Positions 9,226 through 61,001 of a stretch of 64,000 bases of DNA are shown here, one piece after another; within the stretch, counting starts at the first letter, position 1, and every line of letters starts with the position of its first letter. Source of the stretch: Narthecium ossifragum (Eukaryota; Streptophyta; Magnoliopsida; Dioscoreales; Nartheciaceae); contig OY986973.1 in the NCBI GenBank assembly GCA_963920575.1, forward strand, positions 9,706,607 through 9,770,606, read 5' to 3'. The notes under the pieces were generated by a model. That model was not told the origin of the DNA. It worked only from the letters and a program-made list of their open reading frames with translations, and did not search any database. A program made the translations under genes and the position numbers.

Positions 9226-9262
<37 letters not shown>

Positions 9263-21737: not shown

Positions 21738-21799
<62 letters not shown>

Positions 21800-29744: not shown

Positions 29745-32166
29745 TGTCACACCCCGACCCAGAAAACCCATCCAGGACGAGGCGTGAGGGTCCTAACACT
29801 ATTCATCATCAACCGGCACGGTACAAAGCGGAAAAGACGGATAATTTAAACAATTATATTCCAGAGGCTAAGCAGATTTAATTATCATATATCATCAAGT
29901 TGTACAATTCAGATTTAATACAAAAGCTCCCAAGAGATAAATTTAATACAATACTCCAAAATCCTCAGAAGTTTACATCATATACACATATGTATCAAAG
30001 GGTACAACTGGTAATCCTCCAAGCGTCCTCAAGCGCCTCTGGAAGTACTCGCGCCGCCAAAAGCCGATCCTGCCGGCTCCACCGAAGAAGAACTGCCGCC
30101 TGCACCTGCAAACGCAGCCCGGGTAGGAGTGAGCGATAAGCTCAGTAGGGTTCTACTCTACGGCACACTGAAGGGAGGAAAACAACAACAGAGTTGTCTT
30201 CCAGCTCAAGTCTGACGGATGCCACGGGTCCCACAACCCTGTCGACTCCCCAAGGGATCCTACTCTTCTCAACCGACCACGCTGGGAAACTCAACCAACA
30301 CGCTGGGAGGAAAGAACCGGAACCAGTAGGATCACCATTACCCAGCAGGAAACCACTGCCTGGGGACCATGTCAGGGACGTCGACGCCCATCCTTAGAAC
30401 TTAGCTTCGGAAGACAACCCGACTTCTAAACCTCAACAATGATCAGAGTCAACTAGCGTAAATCCTCAAAGACATGAGACTTGATCAACAATCACACCCT
30501 ACTCCTGACTACCCATCCACGGTCCTAAGGCTAGATCCGAGCTACCCGAGAGCCTCGGATCGGCGACCTAAACCATCACCCGCCTAACCTCAAATGCCTC
30601 TAATGCATACAATGCATGAGCCTAGGCAAACATCTATCCTAGATGTCTCTACATGCCACATCAATAGTTAAAAGTTCAACAGATATACAATAGCCCTCGG
30701 CACTCGCCGGCAAGAGGCTAAGGTTCCACAATTTCTCATTAGCTAGCACTCATAGCTAGCTAATGGCTAAGCAAACAACTAAGCAATTAACTACAATCAC
30801 TCATGTATTTGTTGGAAGTAGAACCATAGATTTTCTGGAAAAGGAAAGAACATTTGAATCAATCTCAAACCAAATGGAAAATCCTTTGAAAACCTCATCA
30901 AATCCCCCTACATGCTTCCCAACATGTTTAGATACTAGTTCCCCATCAAAACCAATCAAGAAATACCAGAAAACCGAGTTTAAAGGGTCACGGACGATGT
31001 CACGGTCGATCCGGGGATCGACCGTGAGGCCACGGACGATGCCACGGTCGATCCGGCGATCGACCGTGAGACCCATGTGAAGAAAACCAAGGGCGACGGT
31101 CGATCCATCCATCGACCCTGAGAAGCCCAAAACCAAACAGCGCCTGACGGTTGATGCGACGGTCGATCCGACGGTCGACCGTCAAGTAAAAGGCGAAAAG
31201 GAGGAGATCCTACGGTCGATCGATCCATCGACCGTGGGAGCCCAAAATCCCAACAGAGCCCGACGGTCGATGCGACGGTCGACCGTCAGGCCAGAAAGGG
31301 TAAAACTACACTTGACGGTCGATGCACCGATCGACCGTCGAGCCTTGGCACAGTTCATCAGAACAGTGCCGAAAATCCATTTCTTTGGATTTGAAGTATC
31401 AAATCAAATTGAAAAAGGATGTAATCTTGCAAGCAAGTATATTTAGCAAAGGGGAAGCTAATGGAGTGAAGAAATCCAGTTTTCGACGGTTAAATCTCTT
31501 ATCGAGGTCCAAATGGACAAAAACCGAAAAAACGACGATAATACGGAAACTAACCGTTCAAATACCGAAATCTCAACGTAGGAATACAAGAACTGAGTTA
31601 TGATACACATACAAAGAGTTACAAACCATTCTAACATGTATTCCTACAGCGAAAGCACATAAAACCTATCTTAGGAGAACCCGATCCAAGGATCGAGATA
31701 GAAACACCTACTTGAGCAAGTAGGGGAGCTCCTCCACGCGTGCCACCAGCCGAGCCGCCAAGATCCAAGCTCCGAAAGCCCAATCTCCAAACCCTACCTC
31801 AGCCGAAGGAGAGAGAGAGAAGGGAAGAGATCGACAGGTGAAGGAGAGAAGGAAAGAGAGAAAGAGACATGCCTTATATAGAAATTCCAAATCTATCTCA
31901 GCCGTCCAAATCGATCTTTCCCGATCGAGCTCCGATCCTCCGATCGGACGCACCCTAGGGATTCTAATAAAACACATACATCAATCAAAGTCAGTGTGTG
32001 GAACGCGGGTGTGAAACCGACCACCAGAGGGCATATTTACCAAAATGCCCCCGGGGTCCAAAACCGCCACACGATCGCCCGATCGTGCCCGACGCGGAAC
32101 CAAACCAACAGGAAACCGGCTCTCAACCCACGTGGTCGAGTCAGGTCTGAGGGACGGGCCCTCACA
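29745..32166 (-). mobile_element. Solo LTR (2422 bp) nested in a related LTR
   Basis: On the minus strand it begins TGTGAGGGCCCGTCC and ends GGGTCGGGGTGTGACA. The 5-bp target duplication tcgtg is perfect (29740-29744 and 32167-32171). It inserted in opposite orientation into the related solo LTR 25574-33096. A TATA box (CTATATAAGG, minus) lies at 31872-31881. Seven or so long hairpins occupy 31001-31341. No PBS, PPT or coding sequence is present. Confidence 0.92.
31001..31341. repeat. Array of perfect ACGGTCGAT/ATCGACCGT hairpins
   Basis: CACGGTCGATCC gg GGATCGACCGTG at 31001-31026 is a perfect 12-bp-arm inverted repeat. CACGGTCGATC/GATCGACCGTG follows at 31043-31068. Five more imperfect or perfect copies run to 31341 at 40-70 bp spacing. 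The loops vary while the arms are conserved. Confidence 0.9.
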
Positions 32167-33101
32167 TCGTGACACCTAGTCTAGATGCTTGTATTGATGC
32201 ATGCATTCTATGCATTAAATGCATTCTAGGTTAGGCGTGGGCGATGGGTCAATTGCCGATCCGAGAGCTCGAGCAGCTCGGATCTAACTCTAGGATCGAG
32301 GCTGTGTAGCAAGGTTTAGGGCATGATTGTATTGTTGAATCCTTGTACTCTCCAAGTAAATGTCTAATTGGCTACAATTTTATGGTTATTGAGGTTTAGA
32401 GGTCGTGCCGATTCTCCAAGACCAAGTGCTAATGATGATTGTCGATACGTTCCTGAGGTAGGTCCCCAAGCATGGGAATCCTACTTGGGTAAGGGTAATC
32501 ATGCATGTTACTATTCCGCTGCGTCTTGGTAACATGTTCAAGAGAGAGGTTTCATGATAGGAGCCCTTGGGACATTGATTGGGTTATGAGACGCATGGCA
32601 TACCTTAGACTTAGACGGAAAAGCGACACTGTTATTGTTTCCTCCTTTCAGTCTAACATAGATTAGAACCTAACTGAGCTTATCGCTCACTCCTACCAGA
32701 GGTGTGTTTTGCAGGTGCAGTCACTAGCTCTTCGTCTGTAGCACCAGCTGGACAGGCTTTTGGCTGTGCGTCGACCTCTGGAGGTGTTTGAGGAGTTGGG
32801 GTCCAGTTTATCTTGATAGATTATATAAATATATAATTTCTCTCTTTGAGGATTTTGATATCTATGTATACATGTCTATTTGAGAATTAATCTGCAAAAG
32901 AAATTTTGTATTCATATCCAGATGTATAAATTAAATTTGTGAGCATCTGTAGATTGTTAAAATTATAGTTTTGACCCCATATCAAATTGTTTAAATTAGT
33001 CATGTTATATGTTGTATAATTGCGCCAGAGTTGAAGTGAACATGTTTAGATCCCTCACGTCCCGATCCGGATGGGTTTTCTGAGTCGGGCGTGACAAAAT
33101 A

Positions 33102-33960
33102 TGAGGCGTGAACCTCGACAGGTCTCCCACAACATCTACCAGTGCCAGACCGAGTTTGGGAAGATACTTCCATGGATTTTATAGAAGGCCTACCGACGTC
33201 GATGTTATTATGGTGGTTGTAGACAGATTAACAAAGTACGCCCATTTTATTAAAACATGTTGTGTTATAGAAGAAAATTAACATACATATAGATATGTCC
33301 CCGATCCACACCCAGGCGTTGTTTTTGAAACCGTGATGGTAGTGATTCCGCCAGAAAACTTCAGGTTAAGTGTACTTGCCTTGGAGCGGTCCCGGGATGG
33401 GTGATCTACCGGGAAGTGTTCCCGGATTCTATAGATGACGCAAAAGTGGATAATATTATGTGAGAAGGGTGATGGCGTTACATGGTGAAGCTGCATTGTG
33501 TACCCAATTCTATTGTATGTGACAGATCCTATTTTCTTGAGCAAGTTTTGAATTTTTCAAGCTCCAGGGGACCAAGTTGAAGATAAGCTCTGCATATCAT
33601 CCCCAAACAGATGGGCAAATAGAGGTAATTAATAGGTGTCTAGAGTAGTATTTGCGCAGATTGGCAACCCAAAACCCGAAGAAGTGGATTGCGTTTGTTC
33701 CGTGGGCAGAGTATTGGTATAATACCACATACCAAATACCACGCATCCACCGGCATGACGCCGTTTGAGGTGCTATATGAAAGATCACCTCCAACCGTGT
33801 CAGGTTACTTGGCGGGGGCGTCGCCGGTGGTGGAATTTGATCGAGAATTAATCAACAGGGATGAGGTTCTGCTGCAGTTGAAGGATAATCTCAGCATATC
33901 TATAAATTGCATGAAGCAACTTTCTAACAAGAGGCGACGAGAGTTGTAGTTTGACGTTGG
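33102..33960 (+). pseudogene. Integrase core of second Reina-like element
   Basis: The core resumes after the LTR insertion: [14 protein letters not shown] (first Asp) and [17 protein letters not shown] foreign segment of about 190 bp (33280-33465) breaks it. It continues with PNSIVCDR (second Asp region), [20 protein letters not shown] (catalytic Glu), WIAFVPWAEYWYNTTYQ and MTPFEVLYERSPPTVSGY. Stops stand at 33643-33645 and 33946-33948, where Gln codons are expected. It is inactive but easily recognised. Confidence 0.87.
33345..33430 (+). repeat. 5S rRNA-like sequence (Cassandra-type or SINE-like insertion)
   Basis: Within the integrase core, the stretch attccgccagaaaacttcag, gttaagtgtacttg and gggatgggtgatctaccggg aligns with the 3' two thirds of plant 5S rRNA (atccca-tcagaactccgaag, gttaagcgtgcttg, aggatgggtgacctcctggg), including equivalents of the internal A-box and C-box. 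The 5' part of 5S rRNA is replaced by unrelated sequence (cgatccacacccaggcg). In plants such 5S-like cores are the hallmark of Cassandra TRIM LTRs. No clear LTR ends or target duplication were found, so the class is open. It is not a functional 5S gene. Confidence 0.6.
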
Positions 33961-34245
33961 CGACTGGGTTTACCTTAAACTACAGCCGTACCGGCAAAAT
34001 TTGATGTTTCAGAGGGCTCATCAAAAGTTGGCCAGCAAGTTTTTTGGGTCATATCAAATATTGGAAAGAATAGGATTGGTGGCGTATCGTCTAGCCATGC
34101 TAAAGGGTGTTAAAATCTATCCGGTGTTTCACATTTCTTTGTTGCGTAAGCTAGGAGGAGTTCTGGTGGAGTCGGAGGTGCCGCCATACAATAAGGAAGG
34201 TACACCATCATTAGCGCCGGCGCAAATCTTAGACTACCGCTAAGA
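33961..34245 (+). pseudogene. Integrase C-terminal / chromo-like tail
   Basis: GDWVYLKLQPYRQNLMFQRA, KLASKFFGSYQILERIGLVA and VKIYPVFHISLLRKLGGVL are the GPF-type C-terminal domain. The tail PSLAPAQILDYR ends at TAA near 34241, where the chromodomain would begin. A decayed rest (SLNLSPEDSTWED) is readable in a shifted frame to 34310. Confidence 0.85.
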
Positions 34246-34338
34246 AAAACGGGGGGCTGAAGCACTAGTTCATTCCTTGAACTTGAGCCCGGAAGATTCA
34301 ACATGGGAGGACATGGTCCGAAACGAAGGAGGGGAGAA

Positions 34339-34698
34339 TGATGAGATCCGATGGTCCCAGGAGTCTAAGTTGATTCATAAGAGTTAGTGGAGTTGATTCA
34401 TAAGAGTCCTAATAGTTATGCTTAATTAGTGAGTTGAGTCAGAGGAAATAAGGGTTGGCTGGACTAGTTAATTAGATGAGGAAAGTTAGTGGAGTTGGAG
34501 TCTAAGTTGGACGCCTGCATGCGCCGAGTAGCTAGGGTTTGCTTTAAATAGAGTCCATGTATTAGTTCTTCTTCTTCATGCTCTTTTGCTATCAATAAAG
34601 ACTCGGGTTTTTCGGCCATAAATTGGAGCAAGGGGTGTCCTCTACTATTAAGAGAGGAAAACGAATGACGTGATTTTCCGGATATCGGAAGTTCATCA
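34339..34698 (+). repeat. 3' LTR of second Reina-like element
   Basis: TGATGAGATCCGATGGTCC...CGGAAGTTCATCA, 360 bp, uninterrupted. It contains an internal repeat of ttgattcataagag and a TATA-like gctttaaatag near 34540. It shows the empty site for the solo LTR in the 5' copy. Confidence 0.9.
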
Positions 34699-35318
34699 TA
34701 GATATCTTAGGATGAAAGAAATTTGATGAGTCAACCTTTGTCAGTAGCTAGGTATGTGGCCTATGCTGCATTAACTGAGAAAATATATTCGAACAGTAAA
34801 TACATATAAAGGAATATTGAGAGCTCAACATCCTAAAATCAAGAAGCAATGCACAATATTTGAGCCTCCTATAAGCTATACTATGGCAAGACAATGGAAT
34901 TCATGCACCAAGAATATACCACCAGATTGAACTAGTCGTTAGTGTCAATCCGGGATAAAACGTCCCACCGATTACATGACCAAGAGAATACCTTGTGATA
35001 AACAACCAAAACATAGTTTAGTTCTTTGACTTCAGATTACATTAGTCTAAGGTCACTACATATCAACTTTTCGTCATATTAGATGAAACACCTGGTCCGA
35101 TCATCAAACCAATTCCAGAAATCATAAATTTCATTCTTTGTCAAAAATTGTCACACGAGCACAATCATATAAGGCCGTGTGAATAGCAAGAAAGACATCA
35201 ACAGCTACATTACTCGTTGCAATTTAGGATAAAGCAAATGTTGAATAAATAGACAAGTCTTATTTACATCCATAAAACGACCTCCTGGCTCCTGCTAAAC
35301 ATAAACTAATAGCATTGC
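34699..35318. other. Unassigned AT-rich sequence
   Basis: No gene or repeat family recognised. The sequence directly continues at 39849 after the next LTR element, because the target duplication attgc ends here. Confidence 0.4.
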
Positions 35319-35795
35319 TGATAGGAATCCAGGAGTGGGTCAAGCCAGAGGGCCGAGCCACGTCATGAGTAGTTTGGAGTCATGTCATACGATAAGTCAG
35401 TCATTGGGGTCATATTTGTATTAGTCAATTAGGAGTTGTGATTGATTTAGGTTGGGTGTGAGCCCGAGTCAGTTGTTATTCGGGTTGGATATGAGCCATT
35501 CGTTAGACGGCTACACATCCAACGGCTATGATGTTATCTAGGTATTTGAGAGTACTAGGGTTTCTATATGCCTCTCTATAAATAGAAGGCAAAAGTCTGT
35601 AGTCCAGGCATTCAGGGAATTAGTAAAGCTATTAAGGGGTTCTTCCAGCCATCAAGTGGAAATAGGGATTTATCCAGCCATTAATTGAATACAAGGGGCG
35701 TCCTCGGCCATCAATCGAGAATTATCGTCTTCTTCTCTATCTTCCTTCCACCATCCACGACCCGGTGAGATCTCCTCAGATCCAGGATCTCATCA
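35319..35795 (+). repeat. 5' LTR of the cargo-carrying LTR element
   Basis: TGATAGGAATCCAGGAG...GGATCTCATCA. A TATA box (ctctataaatag) lies at about 35573-35584. Apart from one 17-bp or longer indel it is nearly identical to the 3' copy. Confidence 0.92.
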
Positions 35796-35797
35796 AT

Positions 35798-35809
35798 TGG
35801 TGTCAGAGC
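35798..35809 (+). other. Primer binding site, tRNA-iMet type
   Basis: TGGTGTCAGAGC, 2 nt after the 5' LTR; one mismatch to TGGTATCAGAGC. Confidence 0.85.
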
Positions 35810-35825
35810 TTCAGTTCTTGGCACC

Positions 35826-36213
35826 ATGGCATATTTAACAGAAGAAAAGCGGTTCCAGGCGTTGGAACATGGAGCAGAAGATATCAAGGCGACCATCGTA
35901 GACCTATGGGTATCAGCACAGAAAACAACAACCATGTTTGAAGAGCGTCATGAAGTCATGGAGACTAAATTCAACAGTTTGGAATGGGTCATGCGCGACC
36001 TGGCACGGGACTTGGGCAATCAAATTGCAGCCCTGACAGCTAGAATTGGCGGCGCAAAAGGTGAGTCCTTGGCAAACCCTACAAGCCAAGTAAATCCTAA
36101 TCCTCCATCAACTATCTCATTAGATCCATGCCCTCTATCTTCTCAAACCCAGCGGCCTTCCTTTTCCCTTATTAATCCTAACCCAACATCCACTGTTAGA
36201 TCAAATCATGACT
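35826..36213 (+). CDS. Truncated gag N-terminus
   Basis: From ATG at 35826 the frame reads MAYLTEEKRFQALEHGAEDI, then a helical segment (ATIVDLWVSAQKTTTMFEER, MRDLARDLGNQIAALTARIG) similar to the coiled-coil start of Reina gags. A Pro/Ser/Asn-rich linker (NPNPPSTISLDPCPLSSQTQ) follows. The capsid domain is missing. About 130 codons remain before the solo LTR inserted at 36219, after which the linker style (SPSPNPIHSPPPIPNAYRQP-like) continues at 37530. Confidence 0.75.
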
Positions 36214-36218
36214 GTCCA

Positions 36219-37524
36219 TGTAAGGGCCTAAGTGTAAATTTCTGGGCTTTTATGTAAATTGGAGGACTTTTCGCGTAATTTCTTGTTTTACGGGGGGTTT
36301 TCTGCAAAAACCACCCCCACCCTTCTAGAGAAGTCCAGTCTTCTCTTTCCCCTATTTCGCTGCCAACCCGAGAGAGAGAGAGGGGGAGAGATCGGGAGAG
36401 AGAAATAGAGGGAGATTGAGAGAGATCGGAAGAGAGAACGAGAGAGAGATCGGGAGGGCGATGAAGAGGAAGCAACAGAGAGGAAGGGGAGATCGCCGGC
36501 GCCGGAGAAGAAGGGAGGAAGGGAGGAAGAAACCGAGTGAGAAGGAGGTGGTGCTCGTCGGAAAGGTGTGGATCCGGTGGAATTTCCTCCGGATTTCTTC
36601 TCCCATTTGGCTCAGGCGATCGATTGAGCGGTCGTCAAGTGTCGGAGCGTGACGTGGATTCCTGGACTTAGAGTTTACGCTTGGATTGCGTCTTTGAGGT
36701 AGGAGTTACCTCCTAGGATTTGTTGTGCTTTGTTTGCTATATAAATGTGTTGATGCCTTGATATATGTATCTATTTTATTAATCTTGTGTGTATATGTGA
36801 TGCTATGTTATGCCATGATAGTGTATTTGTTGTGCTAGAGCTTGTTGGGCAAGTTGAGCCCAGTACAAGCTTCTTTATGACATGTTATGTTATGTATATG
36901 ATGATTTCTTGTATGTATGTGTAATGAGATTGATTGACCATTTTATTGATTGATCGATTATTTATGTGATTTGTGCATACATGCTAGGAATGTCAAGTCT
37001 GTCATAGGACAGGGATTATGGTTGGGTCTACTCAGGTCCTGTAGCTAGACTAGTCAGAGTCTAGGGACTAAGTTGATGACTTGATCTGAGGACTTTGATC
37101 TGGTTAAAGATCTGATTTGAGGATTTGATCTGATTGAGGATCTGACTTGAGGATTTGATATGATTGAGGATCTGACTTGAGGATTTGATCTGATTGAGGA
37201 TGTGTTGCCTATACTAGTGTACTGAGACATGTATAGAGTCTATAGGGGTCTTGGAATTTGGAAAAATAGTTGTATATTATAAATTTGGGTTGTCATATCC
37301 TGTATTTTGATGTTTACAAGTCCTATGTACATGAAATGAATGAGATGAATGAATCTAGGTGGGCGAATGTGTCCCTAATAGTTGTGATTAAATGTTGTGA
37401 ATTATGTTTTATTAGTGATTGAAAAGTTGTAATAGTGATCTCACGTGCCTGTGCCCAAGGGTCATGCCGAATTTTTTCAGTAATTATTTGGGATAAATTG
37501 TATTAAATTGGGGCGAGCGTGACA
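36219..37524 (+). mobile_element. Solo LTR (1306 bp), family 1
   Basis: It begins TGTAAGGGCCTAAGTG and ends GGGGCGAGCGTGACA, with a perfect target duplication gtcca (36214-36218 and 37525-37529). It is homologous to the reverse complement of 1095-3469 at both ends and in the tgatctgaggatttgat repeat block (37075-37200). It lacks the roughly 1 kb extra sequence of that copy. It is inserted in the gag linker of the cargo-carrying element. Confidence 0.93.
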
Positions 37525-37529
37525 GTCCA

Positions 37530-39290: not shown

Positions 39291-39345
39291 ACAATTAAAA
39301 ATGAGCTCGACCTTGAGGACAAGGTCGATTTCAAGGGGTGGAGAA

Positions 39346-39843: not shown

Positions 39844-39848
39844 ATTGC

Positions 39849-43235: not shown

Positions 43236-44219
43236 TGATGAAATATGGGATCGAACCACATACTAAGAACAACACCCCCGCAGCAGGCTTCGACCATTGT
43301 CCTGTACCGATCATTAAGACCATTATAAAATGAATGGGCTAATTGCCACTCAGGTACCTCATGATGGGGACACTCTCTTTTATCATTAAAACCAAATCTA
43401 TAAGATCATGTCTAGAAAAAGAATACAAGATTCAACTAGAAAAATACAAGGAAGATCTACTAAAGCTTCATGAGATCCCTAAGTATAGAAATTAGCCACT
43501 CATCTTTGTGATGGAAGCCATAGATTCGATGAAGAACGGTTGGGATCCACGCTGCAACTCCATCTTCTCCAGAGAATCCTTCAAACCCTAATTCTCTATT
43601 TTCTCTCTATGGAGACCTCTAGTTTTCGGCCAGCAAACACCTTCTTATAGGTGTATTCCCGAAATTAGGGTTTTGGGTTGAGTTGGACCTCTAATGCAAC
43701 TCGAATTTTCTGGTTTAATTCTGACAACCTCTTCCGATCGCGACTGGGTTCAACTCGTCCAGAATTTAAAAATGTGTTCAAGATGAAAGATGTAGATTCG
43801 AAAGCCCTCTGTTCTGCCCCGAAGATTTGACATTATGTGAACTTATCTGGAATATTTGGCGAATATTCTTCTGAGCATCGACAGATCAGTTTCCCAGCAT
43901 CTGTTTATCTTCATATTTGTGAAAACTGCTATTAATTTATCTAGAATCTCGCACAGTGTCTAACATGAACGTTGTGCATCTTGAAGTCTTCTATAAGTCC
44001 TAAAAATTTCAGGAATTTAGGATTTATCTGGAGAATTTGGTGAATTCTTTTCGCACTGACAGCGGAGCGGCTTAATTTCCACATATTAGTCTTTTTCTGT
44101 ATTTTCTAACTTGAATCTTCATTAAACCTGAAATCAATTAACAACTATCAAATACAAACACTCTCGGGCTAACAAATGTAAATTAAGGGGTTTAAGTATG
44201 AATATTTAGTGACTCATCA
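43236..44219 (-). repeat. 3' LTR of Athila-like element, carrying a gag fragment
   Basis: On the minus strand it begins TGATGAGTCACTAAATATTC and ends ATCCCATATTTCATCA. Positions 43261-44219 align without length change (959 bp) to 51956-52914. The last part (43261 to about 43390) encodes the same gag segment that lies in the true gag at 51956-52085. Only the outermost 25 bp (43236-43260) are unique to this copy. Confidence 0.82.
43261..43395 (-). repeat. Gag-derived segment inside LTR
   Basis: The reverse strand reads a gag stretch (FNDKRECPHHEVHEWQLAHS followed by FYNGL), as in Athila gag proteins. A retrotransposon LTR normally has no gag sequence, so its position inside the LTR is anomalous. 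Confidence 0.8.
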
Positions 44220-47087
44220 CACCCCCCAACTTACACTTTGCTAGTCATAGAGCAAAGAAAATATAAAAGAAAAACAATAAATCTAACCAGCCACTTTCGT
44301 AGGTTTCACGGTTGCACTTAGCATGTGCAACAAGCTTTTAAACCCCTGGGTTACCCCAGTGGAGGAGTTATAGTCTCATGAGGGTTTTTAGGGATGACAC
44401 CCACAAACATCTATACATTCCCTTGAATATATCATTAGAAATTAATCACAATATTCATCAACTCTAATGTGTGAAATAGAAATATTATCCATAAATATAT
44501 ACCCTTCAACTCATAGTCACATAAACATATAGTAAGTCAAAACATGTCATAACATATTTCTAACACTTCAACATATTTAAGCATGATTAAAAATAACTTT
44601 AACACTCCTATGTGTGAATGTGGTTCCACATGCTTCAGAGCATCTATTATATCTAAACACTTCAACTATTCAAGATCACAATCCTATCCAAGCACATATC
44701 TTCCACTTATCACATAGCAATATCTGTTTTTTTTCCGTAGGAATTTCAACTGTTTTACGCGAACACCACGCTGGTTAGGCACACTGCCCGGTTACTAAGT
44801 TGAAAATCCTCATTTTTTTCTTTCTTCTTTTTTTCAGGAAATTCAACCGTTTTACGCGAACACCACGTTGGCTAGGCACACTGCCCGGTTACTAAGTTGA
44901 AAATCCTCATTTTTCTTTCTTTTTTTCCTGCATACTCAGATAATTACATGTGTTCATGTATTTTCTGTGTCATGACATAAAATTGTAAACCTATCTCAGT
45001 ATCATGCTTAGAATCCAATATCAAGGCACACTGCCCAGTTACTAAGTTGAAAATCCTAATTTTTCTTTCTTTTTTTTTCCGCATACTCAAATAATTACAT
45101 GTGTTTATGTATTTTCTGTGTCATAACAGAAAATTGTAAACCTATCTCAGTATCATGCTTAGAATCTAATATCAACCCCTTAACATGTGGAAGTGAACAT
45201 GTGCATTAGGATATGTCAAGCTATCCTTAAATCATGGTAAAAGTGTTAAAGTATAAAAATAATATCATGCATAGCAAAAATTTACTATTTCTTATATGAC
45301 ATACAAGTCTCAGAATAATTCATAAAATAAATTTCTAAAACATGCATCTTTGTCAAATCATATCATAATTTCATTCTTTTGACATAATTCAAGGGATGTA
45401 TAATATTTGGTTACCATAAAAAAAATATGATCATGAAATTTATGAATGCTACCCTCCAACTTAAATGTAATTGTCCCCAATTACACCAAGTCATAAAAAT
45501 AAAGAAGGAAAAGGATAGAGATCACCATAAATATCGCGCCATAGGTAGTTAGTTCGCATGGAAAACGATCACCACTCCGCCCACAAGAAGAATACGTCAC
45601 CATTAAATAAATTCATGTCTCTAAAAGAGATTAAAAGACTAAAACTTTAGAAATCACCCTAAAACATTAGAGACATATATAAAGACTTAAGAATAACCCC
45701 CTGATCGGTCGATATAAGATTTGCATAATTTGCCCCTTAATGATTTCCGAAGGAATACCTGTTATAAAAAACACCTTTCCAAAAGATCAAAGAAAATAGA
45801 ATGGAAAAAATAACAAAAAGACATAAAAATTTTGGCGGAGTCTCCTCTGGATATATGGACCAAGAACTTGTACAAACATTCATCCACGAAATTAAAAATA
45901 TAGACATTAAAGCAATACAATACATTAACGCATCCATCCACAGCACCCAAATAATCAGCATCCATAAAAATCGTCCTGATTGACAATCTAGACCATCCGA
46001 TCAAACATCAGAGCGCTAGAGCACATGGAACTCGTCCATCATCAATTGGACGGCTGAGAGCTCGCCGGCTGGTGATAAACGGTGGAACGTCGTCGCCGGA
46101 GGATGGGGCCAGTAGGGATGTAATCGTGGAAGGCCAAGGAATGCGTTGGTGAGGTCTGATCAAAGAATCGTGGCCTCACGGTGGTGGAACGGCGGTGAAC
46201 AGTGCGGAAGAAGATGGCCGGAATTGGAATCCGGCGGTCGAAGCTTCAAGCGAGGTGGGCAAGGATCGAGGAAGCATCGTGGAGGGTTTGGGACCTCACC
46301 TATGGGATTTAATCTGCAGATTAGGAGTTCCAAAAGGTGGATGAAAGATGGCGGACGCGAAGGAGGAACGTCGGAAGAAGAATCCGGCGATCTGAGCTTC
46401 AAGCTTGTGTTTGGAGGGTTGCAAAAGCGTCGAAAGGCCAGAGGAAGGTGCTGGATGTGGCTAGGGGCGGTGGGAAGCAATGGAAGAGGTGATCGGAGAT
46501 GGCGGATGAAACAGGGGAGGGTCACCGGCGTCAGAGGAGATGAAATTGGAGGAAGAAGATGCCGTGAGGAGTTAGAGGAGAAGATAGAGAAGGTGGTGGT
46601 CGTGTTTTGGAGGGCTGGACGTTGTTAGGAGTGGTGGGCGGCGGTCGGTGATGAGGAAGGAAGAAGCAGGAGGTTGGATCGACCGTGGATGCAGGTGATG
46701 TGAGAACAAAATCAGACGGTCGATCGATCGATCGACCGCGAACCAGCTTATTTGGAAATGTAAACTGACCGTGGACCACGTTATATGTTTAAGGAGCTGA
46801 CGGTCGATCCTTGCATCGACCCTGAGAAGCTTTATTTTTGACCGAGCCTCACGGAAGTTCTTGCGGTCGATGAGACGGTCGACCGTCCGCCAGGGACTTC
46901 GATTTTCTCGATAATACGATTATTTTTACAGGAAAATCAAGGAAAATCATGGAAAAAATGGAAAAAAACATGTGAAAAATCCTAAAAATCAAAGAAAATT
47001 CAGTAAAGCTACGGAAAAATCATAAAACTGGGTTGCTTCCCTGGAAGCACGTAATTTTACGTCTTTCGCTAGACGTTCATAAAATGA
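44220..47087. other. Long 3' noncoding region of Athila-like element
   Basis: Between PPT and integrase, about 2.9 kb. It contains direct repeats of ttttacgcgaacaccacg ... cactgcccggttactaagttg (44753-44815, 44853-44904, partial at 45024-45055) and of a longer block around ataattacatgtgtNcatg (44938-45030, 45090-45180). A G-rich region at 46060-46660 has an internal repeat (aatccggcgNtcNgagcttcaagc). GATCGATC/GGTCGACC inverted repeats lie at 46716-46890. No env-like ORF is convincing. Confidence 0.6.
46716..46890. repeat. CGGTCGATC/GATCGACCG inverted repeats
   Basis: A self-complementary acggtcgatcgatcgatcgaccgcg, then acggtcgatccttgcatcgaccctg, then gcggtcgatgagacggtcgaccgtc. The arms are the same as the hairpin array at 31001-31341, although the elements belong to different clades. 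Confidence 0.75.
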
Positions 47088-48226
47088 TCAATTATAGCAT
47101 GGACCCGTCAGCTCGACGGACTTAATAACCTCACCGTGGACAATATCCTCCACATAATATTTTAATCTATGCCCATTAACAGTGAAAATTTCATTCTTGT
47201 GTGGATGTCGAATCTCTATAGCACCATGTGTAAATACTTTATTTATGATAAAAGACCCAGACCATCTAGAACGTAATTTGCCTGGGAAAAGACGCAATCT
47301 AGCATTGAAAAGCCAAACATTCTGCCCGACAGCAAAAGTCCTCTGTGAAATATGTTTATCATGGAAGGCCTTTGTTTTATCTTTATAAACTTTGAAATTA
47401 AAATATGCCTCATTGCGAATTTTCTCAAGTTCACATAAACTCAGTTTCCTATGTGTTGTGACGGCATTAGTATCAGTATTGAGCTTTTTAATGGCCCACA
47501 TAGCTCGATGTTCTAATTCTACAGGCAAATGACAAGGTTTATCAAACACTAATCGATATGGGGACATACTGATAGGCGTTTTATAAGCCGTCCTATAGGC
47601 CCACAATGCACCATCGAGCTTAGTGGTCTAATCTGTGCGGACAATACGAACAATTTTCTCTAATATGCGTTTTATTTCCCTATTAGAAAGTTCTACTTGA
47701 CCACTAGTCCGAGGATGATAGGGAAATGTTACTTTATGTGTGATAGAATACCTTCTAAGGAGGGAAGCAAAATATTGATTATTGAAATGAGAACCACCAT
47801 CACTAATAATCGCACGAGGACAACCAAATCGATAAAAGATATTACTTTGAAGAAATTTAACCATAACTTTATGATCATTCAACTTGGTTGCTATAGCTTC
47901 TACCCATTTAGACACGTAGTCGACAGCTACAAGGATATACTGAAAACCAAAGGAAGGTGGAAAGGGACCCATGAAATCAATGCCCCAAATATAAAAAATA
48001 TCGGCAACTAAAATCAGAGTTTGAGGCATCTCATTCCTACGAGAGATATTTCCAGTCTTTTGACACCTAATACAGGATTGGCAAAAATTATGACATCCTT
48101 AAAATTCGTAAGCCAATAGAAACCACACTGCAAGACTTTTGCAGCGGTTTTCTTTCCAGAAAAGTGACCACCACATGCATGTGTATGACAGAAAGTGAGA
48201 ATATCATGAACTTCAGACTCGGGCAC
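47088..48226 (-). pseudogene. Integrase of Athila-like element
   Basis: Finger: CHTHACGGHFSGKKTAAKVL, then a one-base frameshift before the second half. Core: [13 protein letters not shown] (first Asp), [28 protein letters not shown] (second Asp) and [18 protein letters not shown] (Glu), so the DDE triad is present. A TAG in [18 protein letters not shown] near 47630 replaces the usual Trp (TGG). C-terminal part: [20 protein letters not shown] and [20 protein letters not shown]. The frame ends at 47088 near the start of the noncoding region. Two breaks make it inactive. Confidence 0.9.
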
Positions 48227-48295
48227 ACACCTACGGATAACTTGGTCAGAGCAATGCTTAAATAACTCAGGGTCTTCCCATATATAATATTTAAT

Positions 48296-48955
48296 CTAAG
48301 AAAAGTATCTATCTTTGGCATTTTTAGACCAAGAGTCAGGAAGCTTGTCGGAAACAAGAAAATTAACTATATGAGCGTACCAACGTTGTGAAACATGAGT
48401 CACCTGACAGAGATGCTCGTCTGGAAAGGAGGCATTAACAGGAGTGTTATCAAGAATGTGTTCCAAGGGAATGCGAGACAAGTGATCAGCAACTACATTT
48501 TCTGAACCCTTCTTATCCCTAATCTCTAGATCAAATTCTTGCAAAAGCAAGATCCAACGAATCAATCTAGGTTTGCCATCCTTTTTAGCTAAAAGATATA
48601 ACAGAGCGGCATGATCAGTATAGATAATGATTTTGGAACCTAGGAGATAGGAACGGAACTTTTCCAATGCAAATACTACGGCTAATAATTCCTTCTCAAT
48701 AGTCGTATAATTTAATTGAGATTCAAAGAGGGTCTTACTGGCATAATAAATCACATGTGGCAATTTATTTACTCGTTGTCCTAAAACTGCTCCTATGGCA
48801 GAGATAGAAGCGTCACACATAAGTTCAAAAGGTAGAGAATAATCAGGGGCATGAACGATAGGTGCAGTAGACAGTAAATCACGAATAGTCTTAAAAGTAG
48901 TCAAACATGTATTATCGAGAACAAAAAGGACATCCTTGGCTAGCAATTCACACAA
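48296..48955 (-). pseudogene. RNase H of Athila-like element
   Basis: An open 219-codon stretch: [20 protein letters not shown] (catalytic Asp), [40 protein letters not shown] (catalytic Glu), [20 protein letters not shown] (Asp), [20 protein letters not shown] and [11 protein letters not shown]. The domain is intact by eye. A stop and a deletion (FYRFKIS, stop) separate it from the RT. Confidence 0.9.
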
Positions 48956-48958
48956 GGG

Positions 48959-50121
48959 TCATGAAATTTTAAAACGGTAGAATCCAGTAAGACCTAGAAA
49001 AGAGCGAATTTGGCGCACAGAAGAGGGCGGAGGCAGTTTCGCAATTAACTCAACTTTAGCCCTATCAACTTCTATTCCACACTTAGAGACATGTGACCTA
49101 AAACGATTCCTTCTTGAACCATGAAGTGGCTTCTTTCCCAACTAAGAACAAGATTAGTTTCAATGCATCGATCAAGAACTTTAGAAAGATTGTGTAAACA
49201 GGATTCGAAAGAATTTCCAAACACAGAAAAATCATCCATAAATATTTCAAGAAATTTATCAATCATGTTAGAGAAGGTGGCCATCATGCATCTTTGAAAA
49301 GTTGCAGGTGCATTACAAAGACCAAAAGGCATCCTACGGTAAGCAAAAGTACCAAAATGACAAGTAAAAGTAGTCTTCTCTTGATCTTGAGGATCGACTG
49401 CAATTTGGTTATACCCTGAATATCCATCTAAGATTTGATCAATGAAAGGAAGAGGGAAGTAATCTTTTCTAGTCAAAGCATTGAGTTTCCTATAATCAAT
49501 ACAAACACGCCATCCCGTGGTCTGGCGCATTGGGATCTGATCACTGTTCTCATTTTCTACAACTGTTAAGCCTGATTTCTTAGGGACGACTTGTGTAGGG
49601 CTGACCCACTGGCTATCAGAAATTGGGTATATAATACCCGCATCCAGAAGTTTCACCACTTCTTTCTTCACTACCACTTTCATATTCGGATTCAGATGGC
49701 GTTGCATTTCCGTAACAGTTTTAGACTCATCCTCTAAGTGAATCTTATGCATACAAATCGAGGGATCAGTACCTTTCAAATCAGCGACCGTCCAACCTAT
49801 TACTTTCCTATGATCCTTAAGAACATCAACAAGGTGACTCTCCTTATCGGAAGATATAGAAGAAGAAATGATAACGGGAAGAGTAGAGTTTGATCCTAAA
49901 AAAACATATTTTAGAGTTTTAGGTAGTGGTTTAAGTTCAAGTTCATGTGGTGACTCCAGTGAAGTAGGAGCAGGAGTTGATAAGAGTGAATGGAAGGGGT
50001 TCAACAACCCAGGAGATGGTCTCTCGACCATTTCCAGAATCATAACCGACCGGTCGCTCAGGGGGCCGATCGGTCGGTCCAGAATCCAGTTGTGTTCCAA
50101 TGTCATCTTTTGATTGTGCAA
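48959..50121 (-). pseudogene. Reverse transcriptase of Athila-like element
   Basis: LLDAGIIYPISDSQWVSPTQ and VVPKKSGLTVVENEN are followed by TTGWRVCIDYRKLNALTRKD and YFPLPFIDQI. About ten residues normally found before LDGYSGYNQIAVD are missing. The catalytic pair is intact (LEIFMDDFSVFGNSFESCL). The frame shifts at EGIVLGH, and the rest (VSKCGIEVDRAKVELIAKLP, RQIRSFLGLTGFYR) is in another frame ending near 48959. Confidence 0.9.
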
Positions 50122-50760
50122 TTTCTAAACTAACATCATCATGATTGTTAGAGTCATAATCATGCAGACTATCTGATAATTCATCAGAAATCACAGCATG
50201 TGATCTATCATCAATACATTTAGTCAAAATAACAACATTAAAACATTCATCATCATTAGGCTCAGGCAAGCATGCAGTTTTAAAAATATTCAATTTAACA
50301 TGCATATGTCCAAAGGAAACATCCATCACACTAGTTCTACAATTTATGCAGGCATTAGCAGTGGCCAAAAAGGGACATCCTAGGATAATAGGTACGGTCT
50401 TTTTACAGTGGACAGCAGGTTCCATATCTAAGACAACAAAGTCAACAGGAAAGAAGAAATTATCCACTTTGACTAAAACATATTCTAAAATACCTCTAGG
50501 TGTCTTAATGGACCTGTCAGCTAATTGCAAGATCACTGGTATTTGTTTAAGTTTTCCCATCCCAAATTCCTTCTAAAGGTAGTAAGGCATAAGGTTAACA
50601 TTGGCACCTAAATCAAGAAGGGCATTTTCAATATGGTAGTCTCCTATATAACAAGGTGTGGAAGGGGTATCAGGATCTTTCAGTTTAGGAGGTGTATCAT
50701 GCTTCAATATCGAACTCACTTGCTCAGTAGGAAAAATCTTTTTAGACACTTTGGATTTGG
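49943..50760 (-). pseudogene. Aspartic protease region of Athila-like element
   Basis: NALLDLGANVNLMPYYL near 50630-50580 is the DLGA-type protease active site, followed by a stop. The frame MGKLKQIPVILQLADRSIKT, PRGILEYVLVKVDNFFFPVD, FVVLDMEPAVHCKKTVPIIL and GCPFLATANACINCRTSVMD gives the rest of the domain (ILGCPFLATA, usually ILGRPFLATA). An acidic tail follows before the RT. Confidence 0.87.
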
Positions 50761-51955
50761 CCTAGCGTTTATAGGTACACAGATCCTTAAGAAATTTGGC
50801 ATAAGAAGGAATTTGTCTAATGGCATCAAGCAAAGGTATGTTGATATTGACTTGCTTAAAGGTTTCAAGGATTTCTTCGGCAGATTTTCGAACTTTTATG
50901 GTTGAAGAGGGATCCTTAAGGGCTACTGGAAAAGGCACTTTAGGAATATATTTAGTTGGATCAGGCTCCCTAGAATCAGATGGGTTAATATTAGGTGAAA
51001 AATAAGAATCATCTCGGGTTGGACGATTGATCGTCGGATCGGGCGTTTGATCGTCCGTACTGACAGGTTCACCTATTTGGTTATCTACTGTTCTGCCACT
51101 TCTGAGGGTCGTGCGGCTTTGGCACTCTCAAAGTTTTGACTTTCTACATAGTGCTGGCCTATGGGGTTTGTCACAGGTTGACTTGGCAAGTGACCTTCCT
51201 CTCTTTTGGCTATAGTCTTAGAAAGTTGGCCCAGTGAATTCTCAAGTTTAGCAATGGATTGAGTATTAGAATTACACTGGTTCTCTATTCCAGAAACATA
51301 ATTCTAAATTTTAGAGACTTCACTCGCCAAATCACGTCTTATGCCACTAATGTTTTCATTAATGTTTGAATTGATGTTGTCATTCATGGCAGTCATAGTC
51401 GAAAGGAGGGAACTTAAAGTTGGTTCAGAGGTGGATTGGGTTTGAGGGGCTAAAGTTGATTGTGGAGGGTACCCAGGATTTGGATTTGCAGAAGGTTTAG
51501 GTGGGTACTTAAAAGCAGAAGGATTGGTTGTGTTGCCTTGCCCGAGAAAATTACTTAATTGTTGTGGTTTCCAACTAAAATTAGGATGATTTTTCCAACC
51601 TGGATTGTAGGTATTCGAATAAGGGTTATTTTAAGGTTTGGAAAAACCATAAGTTGCATTAGCTTGTTCCTGAACAAAGTCAGGGAAATTGGGAGCCAAA
51701 TGACAATTAGTGATATGATGATCAGAGTCCCAAGAGAAGTGTTAGGCAATTGTTGATTAAGAGTTTGACCTGTTTTCAGCTGGTTTAAATCTTTAGTTAG
51801 GAGAGCTACTTGTGCGGAGAGACTTTGGAATTCATAAATTTCATGAATTCCTCGAGAATTACGAACAGTGGTAGACTGACTCCTAGAAACTGAGGCATTG
51901 TGTTGTGAATTTTCAGCAAGGTTATCATACATTTCCCAAAGAGCAGTCCATGGCT
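50761..51955 (-). pseudogene. Gag C-terminal region of Athila-like element
   Basis: From right to left: CCGGVVLSKPWTALWEMYDN, LAENSQHN, an Asn/Gln-rich region, QVALLTKDLNQLK and then GWKPQQLSNFLGQGN-type sequence. A Pro/Ser-rich stretch (KYPPKPSANPNPGYPPQSTL) and helices with MTAMNDNINSNINENISGIR follow. The N-terminal half is missing because the right LTR is fused here. Several stops (for example near 51632 and 51305) are present. Confidence 0.82.
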
Positions 51956-52914
51956 TACTAAGAACAACACCCCCGCAACAGGCTTCGACCATTATCCTAT
52001 ACCGATCATTAAGACCATTATAAAATGAATGGGCTAATTGCCACTCATGTACCTCATGATGGGGACACTCTCTTTTATCATTAAAACCAAATCTATAAGA
52101 TCATGTCTAGAAAAAGAATACAAGATTCAAATAGAAAAATACAAGGAAGATCTACTAAAACTTCATGAGATCCCTAAGTATAGAAATTAGCCCCTCATCT
52201 TTGTGATGGAAGCCATAGATTCGATGAAGAACGGTTGGGATCCGCGCTGCAACACCATCTTCTCCAGAGAATCCTTCAAATCCTAATTCTCTCTTTTCTC
52301 TCTATGGGGACCTCTAGTTTTCGGCCAGCAAACACCTTCTTATAGGTGTACTCCCGGAATTAGGGTTTTGGGTTGAGTTGGACCTCTAGTGTAACTCGGA
52401 TTTCCTGGTTTACTTCTGACAGCCTTTTCCGATCACGACTGGGTTCAACTCGTCAGGAATTTGGAAATGTGCACAACATTAAAGATGTATATTAGGAAGC
52501 CTTCTGTCCTTCCCCGAAGATTTGACATTATTTGGACTTATCTGAAATATTTGGCGAATATTCTCCTGAGCATCAACGGATCAGTTTCCCAGCATCTGTT
52601 TATCTTCATATTCGTGAAAACTGCTATTAATTTATCCTGAATCTCGCACAGTGTCCAACATGAAAGTTGTGCATCTTTAAGTCTTCTATATGTCCTCAAA
52701 ATGTCAAGAATTTAGGATGTATCTGGAGAATTTGATGAATTCTTTAGATACTGATAGCGAAACGGCTTAATTTCCACATATTCGTCTTTTTCTGTATTTT
52801 CTAACTTGAATCTTCATTAAACCTGAAATCAATTAACAACTATCAAATACAAACACTCTCCGCCTAACAAATGTAAATTAAGGGGTTTAAGTATGAATAT
52901 TTAGTGACTCATCA
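51956..52914 (-). repeat. 5' LTR of Athila-like element fused to gag
   Basis: It aligns over 959 bp with 43261-44219. It ends TCATCA at 52914. On the internal side the gag fragment runs straight into the gag ORF, and no PBS exists. The copy lacks the 25-bp terminal piece TGTGGTTCG...TTTCATCA seen at 43236-43260. Confidence 0.82.
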
Positions 52915-53890
52915 AGAGACTTCATCTTATGCGAATTCTTCCCGACCATCTCCAATCTTAGAAAGGAAGACCGGGTCTCCCGATAGTCGACCAAGTAGTC
53001 CATCTGCTCCAATCAAGTAAGTATTTTTATCTATTTTCTTTGTCTTCTTCATATTCTTCTCTTGGCACTTAGACATTTCTGTCTCCAGGGTTACAACAGA
53101 AGTGTCGTCAAGTACTTCCAGTTCCTCATATTGTTCACCCTCCCCAAGTATCGCTGCATGTGAACCTTCGAACTTGGCCGATGTAACTACTTCCAAGATT
53201 AAGGAATACCTTCCCGTCGTGCTTAGCCAAGCTGAGAAGAATCGTCCAGAGGAACGATCGACCACAGCTCATCTTCAAATTTTGAAACAAGTACGTCTAA
53301 AGATCAGAATCGAACGTCTCGCTCAAAGGAAGATGAAAGTACAATTATTTGTTTTTCCTTTATTATCCATTTATCAATCTCTTCTCATTTTCATATTTGC
53401 ATGCTTCACAGACGGACAAATCTATCGATCAATCGATTGAGAGTGATGAAGGGGACGAAGGAGACGGGGACGGCGAAGATCTTTTTGATGTTTTAAACGC
53501 AGCTCCCACTAAACCAAGCTTGTTATTAATTGGTGAGATGCTCGCTCATGGTCCATATAGCCGTTTACGAGATCTTTGTGATATTGGGTTATCATCTGTA
53601 ACAGCTTCTCCTGATGCATCGGCCTCTCGTATTTTGGCCGAGGAATATGTTATTATGGTATCATTGACCAATGTCACTTAGCCAAGTACCACTGTACCCC
53701 CAACAGTTTTGTCGACAAAAGTACCAGCTACTACATCAACATCAACATCAACACCAATTTCTGGTGCCCCAGAAAGATCAATGGCCGAGAGTACTTTGGT
53801 AGTTTCTACTACTATGACACCATCCTCATTAATTGTTACTCCGCCTGCACGCCCGTCTAGTTCTGCCTCGGATCAGGTAGTCAATTCGGG
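52915..53890 (+). pseudogene. PMD protein gene, 3' exons
   Basis: It continues the PMD unit after the Athila-like insertion. The first exon (to 53016) reads ETSSYANSSRPSPILERKTG. Intron 53017-53072 has GTAAGT...TTAG. The next exon (53073-53338) reads VSSSTSSSSYCSPSPSIAAC, then EYLPVVLSQAEKNRPEERST. Intron 53339-53411 (GTACAA...ACAG) keeps frame (RKMK to TDKSIDQSIESDEGDEGDGD). The exon from 53412 reads DVLNAAPTKPSLLLIGEMLA with a TAG at about 53678. A Thr/Ser/Pro-rich tail follows to a donor at 53878. A final intron to 53945 (TTTTTAG) precedes GNIAQLV, where the next element begins. These low-complexity acidic exons resemble the C-termini of transposon-linked PMD genes. Confidence 0.72.
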
Positions 53891-53971
53891 CTAATACATA
53901 TAATCATTTTATTGATAATAATTATTTAGTATTTCTTATTTTTAGGGCAACATAGCTCAACTAGTTAGGGC

Positions 53972-55643
53972 TAATACATAAATTTTATATCTCGCAAGTA
54001 TACGAATCGGTGCAATCAGTATAGTAGCAAGACGAGTATCGTACCCACAGAGATTTGTAGAGATTAATAGAGTAAAATGCTAAAGAACAGAAAAGAAAGA
54101 AAATATGGAAGAGAAAAGAAGAAATATGAAGTCTCGAAAATAGATGACCTAATAACGAAATAAGAAAACGATAGAAATATGATGAATGGATACTAAGGTT
54201 CCGATTTCACCATAACATCCTCATTCTATGCATTGAATCAATCAAGATCTCAGTTTAATTCCAAGGGCTCGTTCTTCCGGTATGATGATCCGTCGGCCGC
54301 GGTCTTCACCAAGTACCCTCAATTAACCCTAGTTAATGAACCCATAACTAAGTGTTAACCAAGAATCCATTAAGCTCTGAAGAACAATCATGAACCAAGA
54401 ATACTCTTAGCTTGAACCCGGCCTCGACATAAACTCATTCATTCATAGATCCTGCAAGATTAGGGAATGAACCCTCGCCCAATCTCACATACAACAATCT
54501 ATAATACTTCTATTGGCCAGATAAAGGTATTTAAGATCTCAGTTATAATAATGAATGAAACAAGGAAAATAAACTGATAAAATAATCATGATCCAATAAC
54601 ATAGAATGATTCAGTTAGGGCTACATCGGTACCTTAGAAAAGAAACTAGCCACTCATGTTCACCATGAGGGCAACGAAACTAATGGAGAAATAAAGAAGA
54701 AATAAGAAAAGAAAACCAAGCCTGGAACCCTTCTCCTCGCCTCCAAACGCTGCCAAAAAGTCCTCCAAAAATCCCCCTTTGATAACCCTAAGTATCCTAT
54801 TTATAGGCCTAAACTCGGGTTAAATCAAAACCGTTGATTTAATTCACTGGAAACGTCCGATCGATCCTCCTCGGGATGTTGGATCGATCGGTCTCATTGA
54901 GATCTCCCACTTCTATTTACGCCCGAGCCCGATCGATCGGACTAAGGGAGTCGGATCGATCGACTTCGTAAAAATTCTTCATCTCTGGCTCTTCCCGAGT
55001 TCGATCGATGGTCCGATCGATCGAATTGTGTTCCTCTAAAAAGCATACGTTCTGTCACCCTTTAATTCCCAAGTCCGATCGATCGAATTATGAGTGTTGG
55101 ATCGATCGGTTGAGTAAAAATCCGCGGTTTTTGACTTTTCCTGAGTCCGATCGATCGGACCATTGGTGTCGGATCGATCGGACCCCATAAGAGCGATGGA
55201 GGGATCGATCGGATGTGTTGTGGCTGAAAAACACATGTTCTGTCACGTTTTTGCGTGGTCCGATCGATCGGACCTTCGCTCGGACTTCCAGCTTATTTAC
55301 TGTGCTGCCATTCAGACTGCGCCATCGGTACTAAAATTGCCATAACTTCCTCTAGGAAACTCGGAATCACGAACCGTAAAATTCTCCAGAATCTAGACTT
55401 CAAGAGCTTTCCAACCATATATGGTACATAATCTGATTCTTCATGAGCAGGTACAGATTAATCTTTAAAGTTGATCCATGCACTCTTTTCAGCTTCTTTT
55501 CTCTTTTTTCCTGCATTTTCCAAACAACTATGTGAAGCAACATATAGATATAAAAATAGGAATAAAGATGTTGATTAAAGATAATAATCTAGCAATTGAG
55601 ATGGTTATAAGGCTATTTAGAGTGCACTTTCATGCACTCATCA
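53972..55643 (-). repeat. 3' LTR of the gag-protease element
   Basis: 1672 bp. On the minus strand it begins TGATGAGTGCATGAAAGTGC and ends in a changed terminus (ATGTATTA instead of TTCATCA). A TATA box (CTATAAATAG, minus) lies at 54797-54806. CCGATCGATC hairpins lie at 54857-55270, upstream of the TATA box. Confidence 0.9.
54857..55270. repeat. Array of CCGATCGATC / GATCGATCGG inverted repeats
   Basis: Seven or more paired arms lie within 410 bp upstream of the TATA box. Examples are CCGATCGATCC with GGATCGATCGG (54857-54891, 11-bp perfect arms) and CCGATCGATCGG (self-complementary). The second LTR has the same array at 60190-60625. Confidence 0.9.
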
Positions 55644-59255: not shown

Positions 59256-59280
59256 TCACTACAAATAAACTCTAATCAAA

Positions 59281-59298: not shown

Positions 59299-59304
59299 AA
59301 AACT

Positions 59305-61000: not shown

Positions 61001-61001
61001 A

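Follow-up and report, generated by a model that had tools for sequence, protein, structure and literature searches.

Helically phased 24-bp dyad arrays in Ty3 and copia retrotransposons of Narthecium ossifragum

What does a retrotransposon retain when its long terminal repeat (LTR) carries an array of inverted repeats: the pairing of the arms, or the sequence of the arms themselves? The question is raised by a 64,000-nucleotide stretch of the Narthecium ossifragum genome (assembly GCA_963920575.1, contig OY986973.1, positions 9,706,607 to 9,770,606; hereafter the window), where a first-pass annotation described family-specific arrays of perfect hairpins inside unrelated LTRs and proposed that pairing itself was selected. 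One such array lies in a solo LTR of a Ty3 element at 29745-32166 and belongs to what is here called the CGGTCGAT class. In this class the unit is a dyad of fixed geometry, with conserved arms and helically phased copies, and it occurs in both Ty3 and copia elements.

The arrays are clearly real. Perfect inverted repeats with arms of at least 8 bp and loops of 3-16 were counted in segments of ~400 bp and compared with 20 dinucleotide shuffles of each. The three arrays described at 31001-31341, 54857-55270 and 60190-60625 stood far above shuffled sequence, with seven repeats at 31001-31400 (shuffle mean 0.05, maximum 1), six at 54801-55200 (mean 0.10, maximum 1) and six at 60201-60600 (mean 0.30, maximum 2). 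The first had been put at about seven copies, and seven 24-bp dyads were counted in it (features listed without strand):

31000-31343: dyad array of seven 24-bp units, from motif match and shuffle test
31002-31025: dyad 1, ACGGTCGAT-N6-ATCGACCGT
31044-31067: dyad 2
31096-31119: dyad 3, right arm ending CCCT
31159-31182: dyad 4, a 36-bp form with an additional direct half-site 12 bp upstream; 12 bp missing in one aligned copy
31212-31235: dyad 5
31263-31286: dyad 6; 12 bp extra in 5 of 28 aligned copies
31315-31338: dyad 7

The unit of the CGGTCGAT class is therefore a 24-bp dyad, ACGGTCGAT-N6-ATCGACCGT, in which the length and the arms are fixed and the centre is free. Loops had been said to vary, which is true of their sequence in this class and not of their length. 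When the assembly was searched (379.4 Mb, 150 contigs), the convergent pattern CGGTCGA-N(0-29)-TCGACCG had 29,250 matches and the reversed-pattern control had 52; the gap was exactly 8 bases in 43 of the 51 pairs among the matches listed; those 43 pairs held 23 distinct gap sequences, counted independently of strand. Direct pairs of half-sites within 29 bp numbered 29,350 (14,701 + 14,649, against 235 controls), ~60 of the ~100 among the matches listed being 12-bp steps, and divergent pairs at distances of 26-55 bp numbered 20,578 (control 42). Of course, the copying of elements inflates all these genome-wide pair counts. A flank pattern, CACGG...CCGTG, gave 3,296 matches and was left unused, as it had no mismatched counterpart to compare. 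Dyad number, seven in the window array, ranged from 2 to 11 hits in other arrays, overlapping 12-bp tandem forms included. At G000:C1:4417400-4417454, five half-sites follow one another in 12-bp steps and form a small minisatellite.

The same arms had also been reported in the internal region of an Athila-like element, at 46716-46890, and three units of the CGGTCGAT-class motif do occur there, at 46716, 46800 and 46863, fitting the 24-bp form at 19/20, 18/20 and 17/20 positions, respectively. The stretch has fewer than two repeats at the arm threshold of 8 and hence lay outside the shuffle comparison. An alignment of 28 copies adds a fourth dyad, for a spacing of 52, 51 and 63. Not every arm is perfect, as the units at 31096 and 46800 end in CCCT instead of CCGT.

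Whether sequence or pairing is conserved can be judged from aligned copies of two families. For the family of the window LTR (F1), 28 copies were aligned out of 40 scored; these were the copies closest to the window array, so that conservation was measured in a biased sample. For the Athila internal array, 40 copies from among 1,126 candidates were scored (77-91% alike, not counting that of the window) and 28 were aligned. At non-CpG positions, the substitution rates of arms, centres and spacers were 0.0099, 0.0492 and 0.0288 in F1 and 0.033, 0.105 and 0.075 in the Athila family, the arms being 2-5 times slower than spacers or centres. The corresponding CpG rates in F1 were 0.0172, 0.0317 and 0.0294. 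Arm changes in F1 comprised 46 one-sided and no two-sided cases, while those of the Athila array comprised 59 one-sided cases and, among the two-sided, three paired and three unpaired. Across 117 distinct dyads from 25 arrays, there were 161 one-sided and 12 two-sided changes, against ~11.7 of the latter expected, and six of the 12 were complementary, against ~7.3 expected from independent sides. Complementarity of centre pairs (31 distinct centres) and of flank pairs (13 clusters) was not above chance. Genome-wide, 73 dyads had both sides altered at arm position 5, a count that stands without a single-change denominator; 34 of the 50 among those listed were complementary, 32 of the 34 in one lineage.

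Selected pairing, the interpretation first placed on these arrays, is rejected for the CGGTCGAT class on the strength of the two-sided changes, the centre pairs, the flank pairs and the genome-wide double-change count. The pattern speaks for arms that are kept as sequence, in the form of a conserved half-site with the core GGTCGA, and not as pairs. This bears directly on one alternative, namely that the transcribed array folds into RNA hairpins that would be a source of small RNAs or have a role within the leader RNA, in which case pairing would matter. Such a role is unlikely, given that compensatory changes are not in excess, the centres are unpaired and the gap length is fixed; moreover, direct half-site pairs are as common as convergent ones, and the 10.5-bp phasing described below would be meaningless for RNA. 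Two arrays do fold far below shuffled sequence (z -7.9 and -9.4, none of 100 shuffles reaching so low), though low folding follows by construction from an array of inverted motifs. The F1 array also lies downstream of a TATA-like site, and so is probably present in RNA, and the passages covered of two papers report palindrome-rich Sirevirus LTR regions as small-RNA hotspots (PMC5311732, PMC10760457).

A second property of the arrays is the spacing of their dyads. In a first list of 11 arrays, the 16 distinct adjacent distances had a best period of 10.45 bp when periods of 6-16 were scanned. With 20 extra stretches of contig C1, hand-picked from the matches listed and all within its first 7 Mb, 25 arrays with dyads were obtained. 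Of their 135 adjacent distances, 130 departed by no more than 0.2 turn from a multiple of 10.5 bp, against 40% by chance; distances below 24 bp (12-bp tandem half-sites) were excluded from this count, as was one locus, L063, that has no 24-bp dyad. Phasing was seen in F1 (14 arrays, R 0.86) and in family F3 (6 arrays, R 0.72). When spacers were collapsed to 12, 18 or 27 clusters, with distances below 28 bp or above 130 bp excluded, R at 10.5 was 0.68, 0.66 and 0.68, the jitter p was 0.0025, 0.00015 and 0 of 20,000, and the best period was 10.6-10.65. Among the 50 divergent pairs listed, 47 lay at 30-32, 40-42 or 51-54 bp, three at 34, 36 and 49, and none at 43-48. Genome-wide, the out-of-phase band of 44-49 bp held 144 pairs (control 11). 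This amounts to 0.7% of all 20,578 pairs at 26-55 bp, against the 20% expected if pairs were spread evenly across the 30 gap values. A period of this kind could conceivably be a rotational nucleosome-positioning signal from CpG-rich motifs, free of any protein cooperativity, and arrays of ~0.3-0.45 kb would correspond to two to three nucleosomes; since that leaves both the fixed 24-bp dyad and the conserved GGTCGA half-sites unexplained, we consider it very improbable.

The elements that host these arrays, and the strand on which they are read, are as follows:

29745-32166, minus strand: solo LTR of a Tekay/Del-type Ty3 element (family F1), the same 2.4-kb block being found in copies with differing flanks
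31872-31881, minus strand: TATA-like TCTATATAAG, at sense ~287, exact in 21 of the 26 F1 loci listed
43261-52914, minus strand: Athila-type element with LTRs at 43261-44219 and 51956-52914, its reverse transcriptase on the minus strand
46716-46886, no strand: internal dyad array with dyads at 46716, 46800 and 46863, from motif match and 28-copy alignment
53972-55658, minus strand: 3' LTR of a gag-only Athila-type element, from the LTR pair and primer-binding site
56838-59255, minus strand: gag open reading frame (ORF) that sets the orientation of the 53972-61019 element
59305-61019, minus strand: 5' LTR of the 53972-61019 element, with TATAAATA near sense 859

Orientation of the solo LTR comes from a two-LTR relative on C1 (L044), 82% alike in the LTR, between whose LTRs lie gag and a pol frame of 1,259 residues; this gag-pol therefore places the window LTR on the minus strand. 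Its pol has the Ty3 order, with protease, reverse transcriptase, RNase H and integrase parts, the integrase core falling under the Pfam cut-off and the zinc and SH3 parts above it, and the Pfam Chromo domain had no match in it at E 0.001. The Tekay/Del label is one we assign provisionally, from a likeness of the primer site and polypurine tract and from LTR length, and the Athila label of the 43261-52914 element is likewise provisional. In that element, the internal array sits between the reverse transcriptase and the 3' LTR. The LTRs of the 53972-61019 element are 97.8% alike; its gag ORF is on the minus strand, and at the LTR edge stands a string that we presume to be the Athila-type primer-binding site. 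The minus strand is the sense strand of both the 29745-32166 LTR and this element, so that what had been called the LTR start is in fact the 3' end. In sense coordinates, the array of the 29745 LTR occupies 826-1166, downstream of the TATA-like site near 287, and that of the 59305 LTR occupies 375-780, upstream of TATAAATA near 859; the opposite placements first reported thus hold in sense orientation for these two LTRs.

Clustering with the arrays masked gave five groups, a split that is our own judgement, as short matches at the threshold used join nearly all loci into one component. These are F1 (resembling the window LTR); F2 (L041, L048 and L054); F3 (L039, L045, L046, L049, L050 and L062); F4 (L057, 89% identical to the 18846 LTR and, in parts, 77-84% to the 59305 LTR); and F5, the Athila internal array. 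An F3 element whose LTR parts are 97% alike encloses copia-type gag and integrase domains (L093), and all six F3 loci may form one copia family, although their unity is only inferred because the members are tied by matches of ~70-500 bp. Dyads of the CGGTCGAT class are carried by Ty3 LTRs of Tekay/Del type, by a copia element and, among Athila-type elements, by one LTR and one internal region. The first-pass annotation is supported in that symmetric motifs form non-random arrays both in distinct LTR families and in the interior of an Athila-type element; arms specific to a family are so only in part, since Ty3 and copia elements share the CGGTCGAT arms. One locus, L063 (G000:C1:5037800-5039200), is flanked by the LTRs of the copia element (L062/L093), and there GGTCGA half-sites at positions 508-752 are mainly direct, with TCGA spacings of 20-21, 29 and 40-42 bp and no 24-bp dyads. 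Another locus, L048 (G000:C1:2074966-2075008), has a second, different repeat, CGGTCGAGCGATCGATAGC, ~0.9 kb from its dyads and again near 2082114.

What, then, would the arrays do? On balance we lean, slightly, towards CGGTCGAT arrays being cis-regulatory sites for a dimeric DNA-binding protein that would occupy one face of the helix, its binding being a prediction from sequence. Each dyad would present such a dimer with a pair of inverted half-sites that share the core GGTCGA and are separated by 12 bp. Neighbouring dyads would lie about 3, 4, 5, 6 or 8 turns of 10.5 bp apart, and with whole-turn spacing the bound dimers would all point to one side of the duplex, where they could bind together. 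Elements would retain half-site sequence and phase while spacers and centres drift, and the array may have moved across element families and superfamilies by recombination or been retained from an old common stock. The factor would probably come from the host, and might help transcription or resistance to silencing. That one lineage has its array downstream of a TATA-like site and another has it upstream suits a site that acts at the DNA level, and the conservation of half-site and helical phase, not pairing, in both Ty3 and copia arrays points to a protein binding duplex DNA. Because the 24-bp dyad is short and defined, it could be used directly as bait, which makes the purpose of LTR palindromes testable. 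A further-reaching version, in which a single host factor serves Ty1/copia and several Ty3 lineages through a shared, phased 24-bp dyad array that moves as a module, an enhancer or anti-silencing platform of tens of thousands of sites, is possible but doubtful.

Several observations weigh against a dimer-binding site. F2 taken alone (3 arrays) has R 0.47 with p 0.13, so that its phasing is not significant, and distances absent from F1 have R only 0.46 (p 0.015); F2 LTRs are, in parts, 74-76% like those of F1. For the 50 divergent pairs listed, 10.8 bp fits slightly better than 10.5. Arrays and copies are related and their distances non-independent, while the spacing is partly a consequence of ~31- and ~52-bp units and of the 12-bp half-site; single half-sites (442) also show distance peaks at 12, 24, 65 and 75 bp. 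The F1 and Athila internal arrays share the spacing order 52/51/63 and a flank, and are probably one homologous module; they were rejected as independent evidence on account of that shared order and flank. CpG rates of the Athila array were 0.072 in arms, lower than the 0.124 of spacers and higher than the 0.059 of centres. In the C1 two-LTR relative, a TATA-like match occurs not at ~287 but only near the 3' end. The GATCGATC class, by our own arithmetic on site distances, lacks helical phase. Dyad sites also get lost, as seen in deletions across one perfect Athila dyad. That dyad, at consensus position 118 and the only perfect one of its array, bears differing deletions in several of the 10 copies listed out of 28, the window's included, as expected of an unstable palindrome.

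Could mutational turnover alone be sufficient? Palindromic cores and short repeats breed slippage, duplication and inversion, and on this account the arrays would be functionless. Two dyad units do show indels of exactly 12 bp among F1 copies, tandem units of 23 and 31 bp occur in Athila-type LTR copies together with an inversion of 15 bp between GATCGATC cores, and the array is hypervariable while its flanks are conserved. Turnover does not account for the slow non-CpG arm positions of two element families, for one dyad geometry in Ty3 and copia elements alike, or for an out-of-phase gap band that is nearly empty genome-wide, and as a full explanation it is quite unlikely.

Compared with described systems, the dyad arrays come closest to the RM boxes of Sireviruses, the nearest known kind, whose motifs are nearly the same; the CGGTCGAT arrays are best read as a variant of them. 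In the parts covered of the work on these Ty1/copia elements, RM boxes are a palindromic dyad motif with many LTR copies, a CGG-CCG signature, clusters that border a CpG island and additional internal copies upstream of env, with the forms CGGTCGACCG (Vitis), CGGTCAGACCG (Osr8), AGCGGTASTACCGCT (Inga) and ACAATCGATTGT (Tnd-1) (PMC2829016). The window array is likewise a palindromic motif in many LTR copies, and its dyads bear the signature (CGGTCGA...TCGACCG), which the GATCGATC class has only partly (CCGATCGATCGG). Among the motifs given there, that of Inga resembles the window hairpin at 61929, and that of Tnd-1 has the ATCGAT core of the window's Athila-type LTR. Differences are also evident. 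The same passages hold the RM motif to be Sirevirus-specific relative to the classic Ty1/copia elements compared, whereas the dyads here are found in copia and also in Ty3 elements of both Tekay/Del and Athila type, the F1 host having Ty3-type order and domains and the F3 element (L093) being copia-type. The unit here is a helically phased 24-bp dyad with a 6-bp free centre; in the parts of PMC2829016 covered, no phasing of RM boxes was found, the word "helical" occurring once in a context not identified. RM boxes are placed there upstream of the TATA box, with which the 59305 LTR agrees, while the 29745 LTR has its array downstream.

Other precedents are more distant. A 2016 Sirevirus study, as cited in passages of PMC5311732 and PMC10760457, found clusters of palindromic motifs with predicted secondary structure in the LTR regulatory region, grouped within the LTR as they are here. 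According to the portions covered of a 2023 study (PMC10760457), maize Ty3/RLG elements generally have no obvious peak of such structure, unlike the Ty3 elements here, and the copia palindrome is also reported from Helitrons, which sets a precedent for motifs shared between kinds of element. The plastic 5' CpG islands of Del LTRs (PMC4029996, in part) are similar in being CpG-rich, length-variable stretches in long LTRs; that paper has 0 occurrences of "palindrom", "inverted", "hairpin" and "tandem repeat", and its passages report no CpG island in the eudicot group. The BII boxes of Tnt1 are also LTR boxes, said to bind defence-induced DNA-binding factors, and are likened by description; palindrome and phasing are absent from the passages of PMC3316501 covered. 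SIRC cassettes of Arabidopsis combine short repeats, some palindromic, with spacers and occur in Athila elements too, and differ as direct-repeat cassettes that have no fixed dyad geometry in the passages of PMC10342631 covered. A scan of open-access titles and the starts of abstracts, a scope outside which the 2016 Sirevirus study falls, found no report of helically phased dyads in Ty3 LTRs. In the literature so covered, plant LTR palindrome arrays have mainly been treated as Sirevirus regulatory boxes, hairpins or small-RNA hotspots.

The GATCGATC class, found in the gag-only Athila-type element, follows a different course:

54857-55274, no strand: GATCGATC palindrome array, short form
60190-60631, no strand: GATCGATC palindrome array, long form
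60479-60540, no strand: 62-bp perfect palindrome, not in the other LTR of the element; copy L095 has a direct duplicate here, against which the 15 bp separating two GATCGATC cores run the other way round
18846-20367, plus strand (inferred from alignment to the 59305 LTR): related LTR with different palindromes (19208-19227 and 19394-19407) in the array region

The flanks of the 18846 LTR are 80-86% identical to the 53972 and 59305 LTRs, in which the GATCGATC palindromes are mostly 23 and 49 bp apart. By our count, on sites that are not independent, 8 of 26 non-duplicate window sites have at least three extra symmetric flank pairs, against ~0.4 by chance, and these eight differ in sequence. Among the 10 best-scoring GATCGATC loci, seven have the short form seen in the window 3' LTR, one is the window's own 5' LTR, and the remaining two have direct duplications, one of 23 bp and one of 31 bp. 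In the window 5' LTR, the 15-bp segment between the two cores of a 23-bp duplicate is inverted, which yields the 62-bp palindrome. Tandem duplication combined with inversion at the palindromic core is thus a directly observed mutational route to inverted repeats in this class. Selected pairing draws some support here from the varying symmetric flanks.

The remaining arrays of the earlier description are slighter, and were the weaker cases in the shuffle comparison:

29403-29422, no strand: single 20-bp palindrome, AGTTGGGATCGATCCCAACT
61929-61951, no strand: single hairpin with arms GCAGCGGT/ACCGCTGC

At 29201-29600, there were two repeats against a shuffle mean of 0.10, both from the 20-bp palindrome and its surroundings; an array had been placed here at 29335-29430. 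The two repeats at 61801-62200 (mean 0.05) are the 8-bp hairpin at 61929-61951 and an AT-rich hairpin at 62054-62090, so that a single hairpin replaces the array at 61929-61999. That at 2605-2690 likewise gives way to one imperfect 13-bp hairpin (2606-2635), which falls under the threshold.

The window as a whole holds 196 perfect inverted repeats whose arms reach at least 9, and 151 of these start in three 500-bp bins (6501, 9001 and 21501), where they are supplied, as nested hits in two-base steps, by simple-repeat-like stretches at ~6744-6965, 9228-9258 and 21739-21770. The only Rfam match at the gathering threshold was snoR71 at 58637-58742 on the plus strand (47.6 bits, gathering 40), which lies inside the region of the minus-strand gag ORF at 56838-59255.

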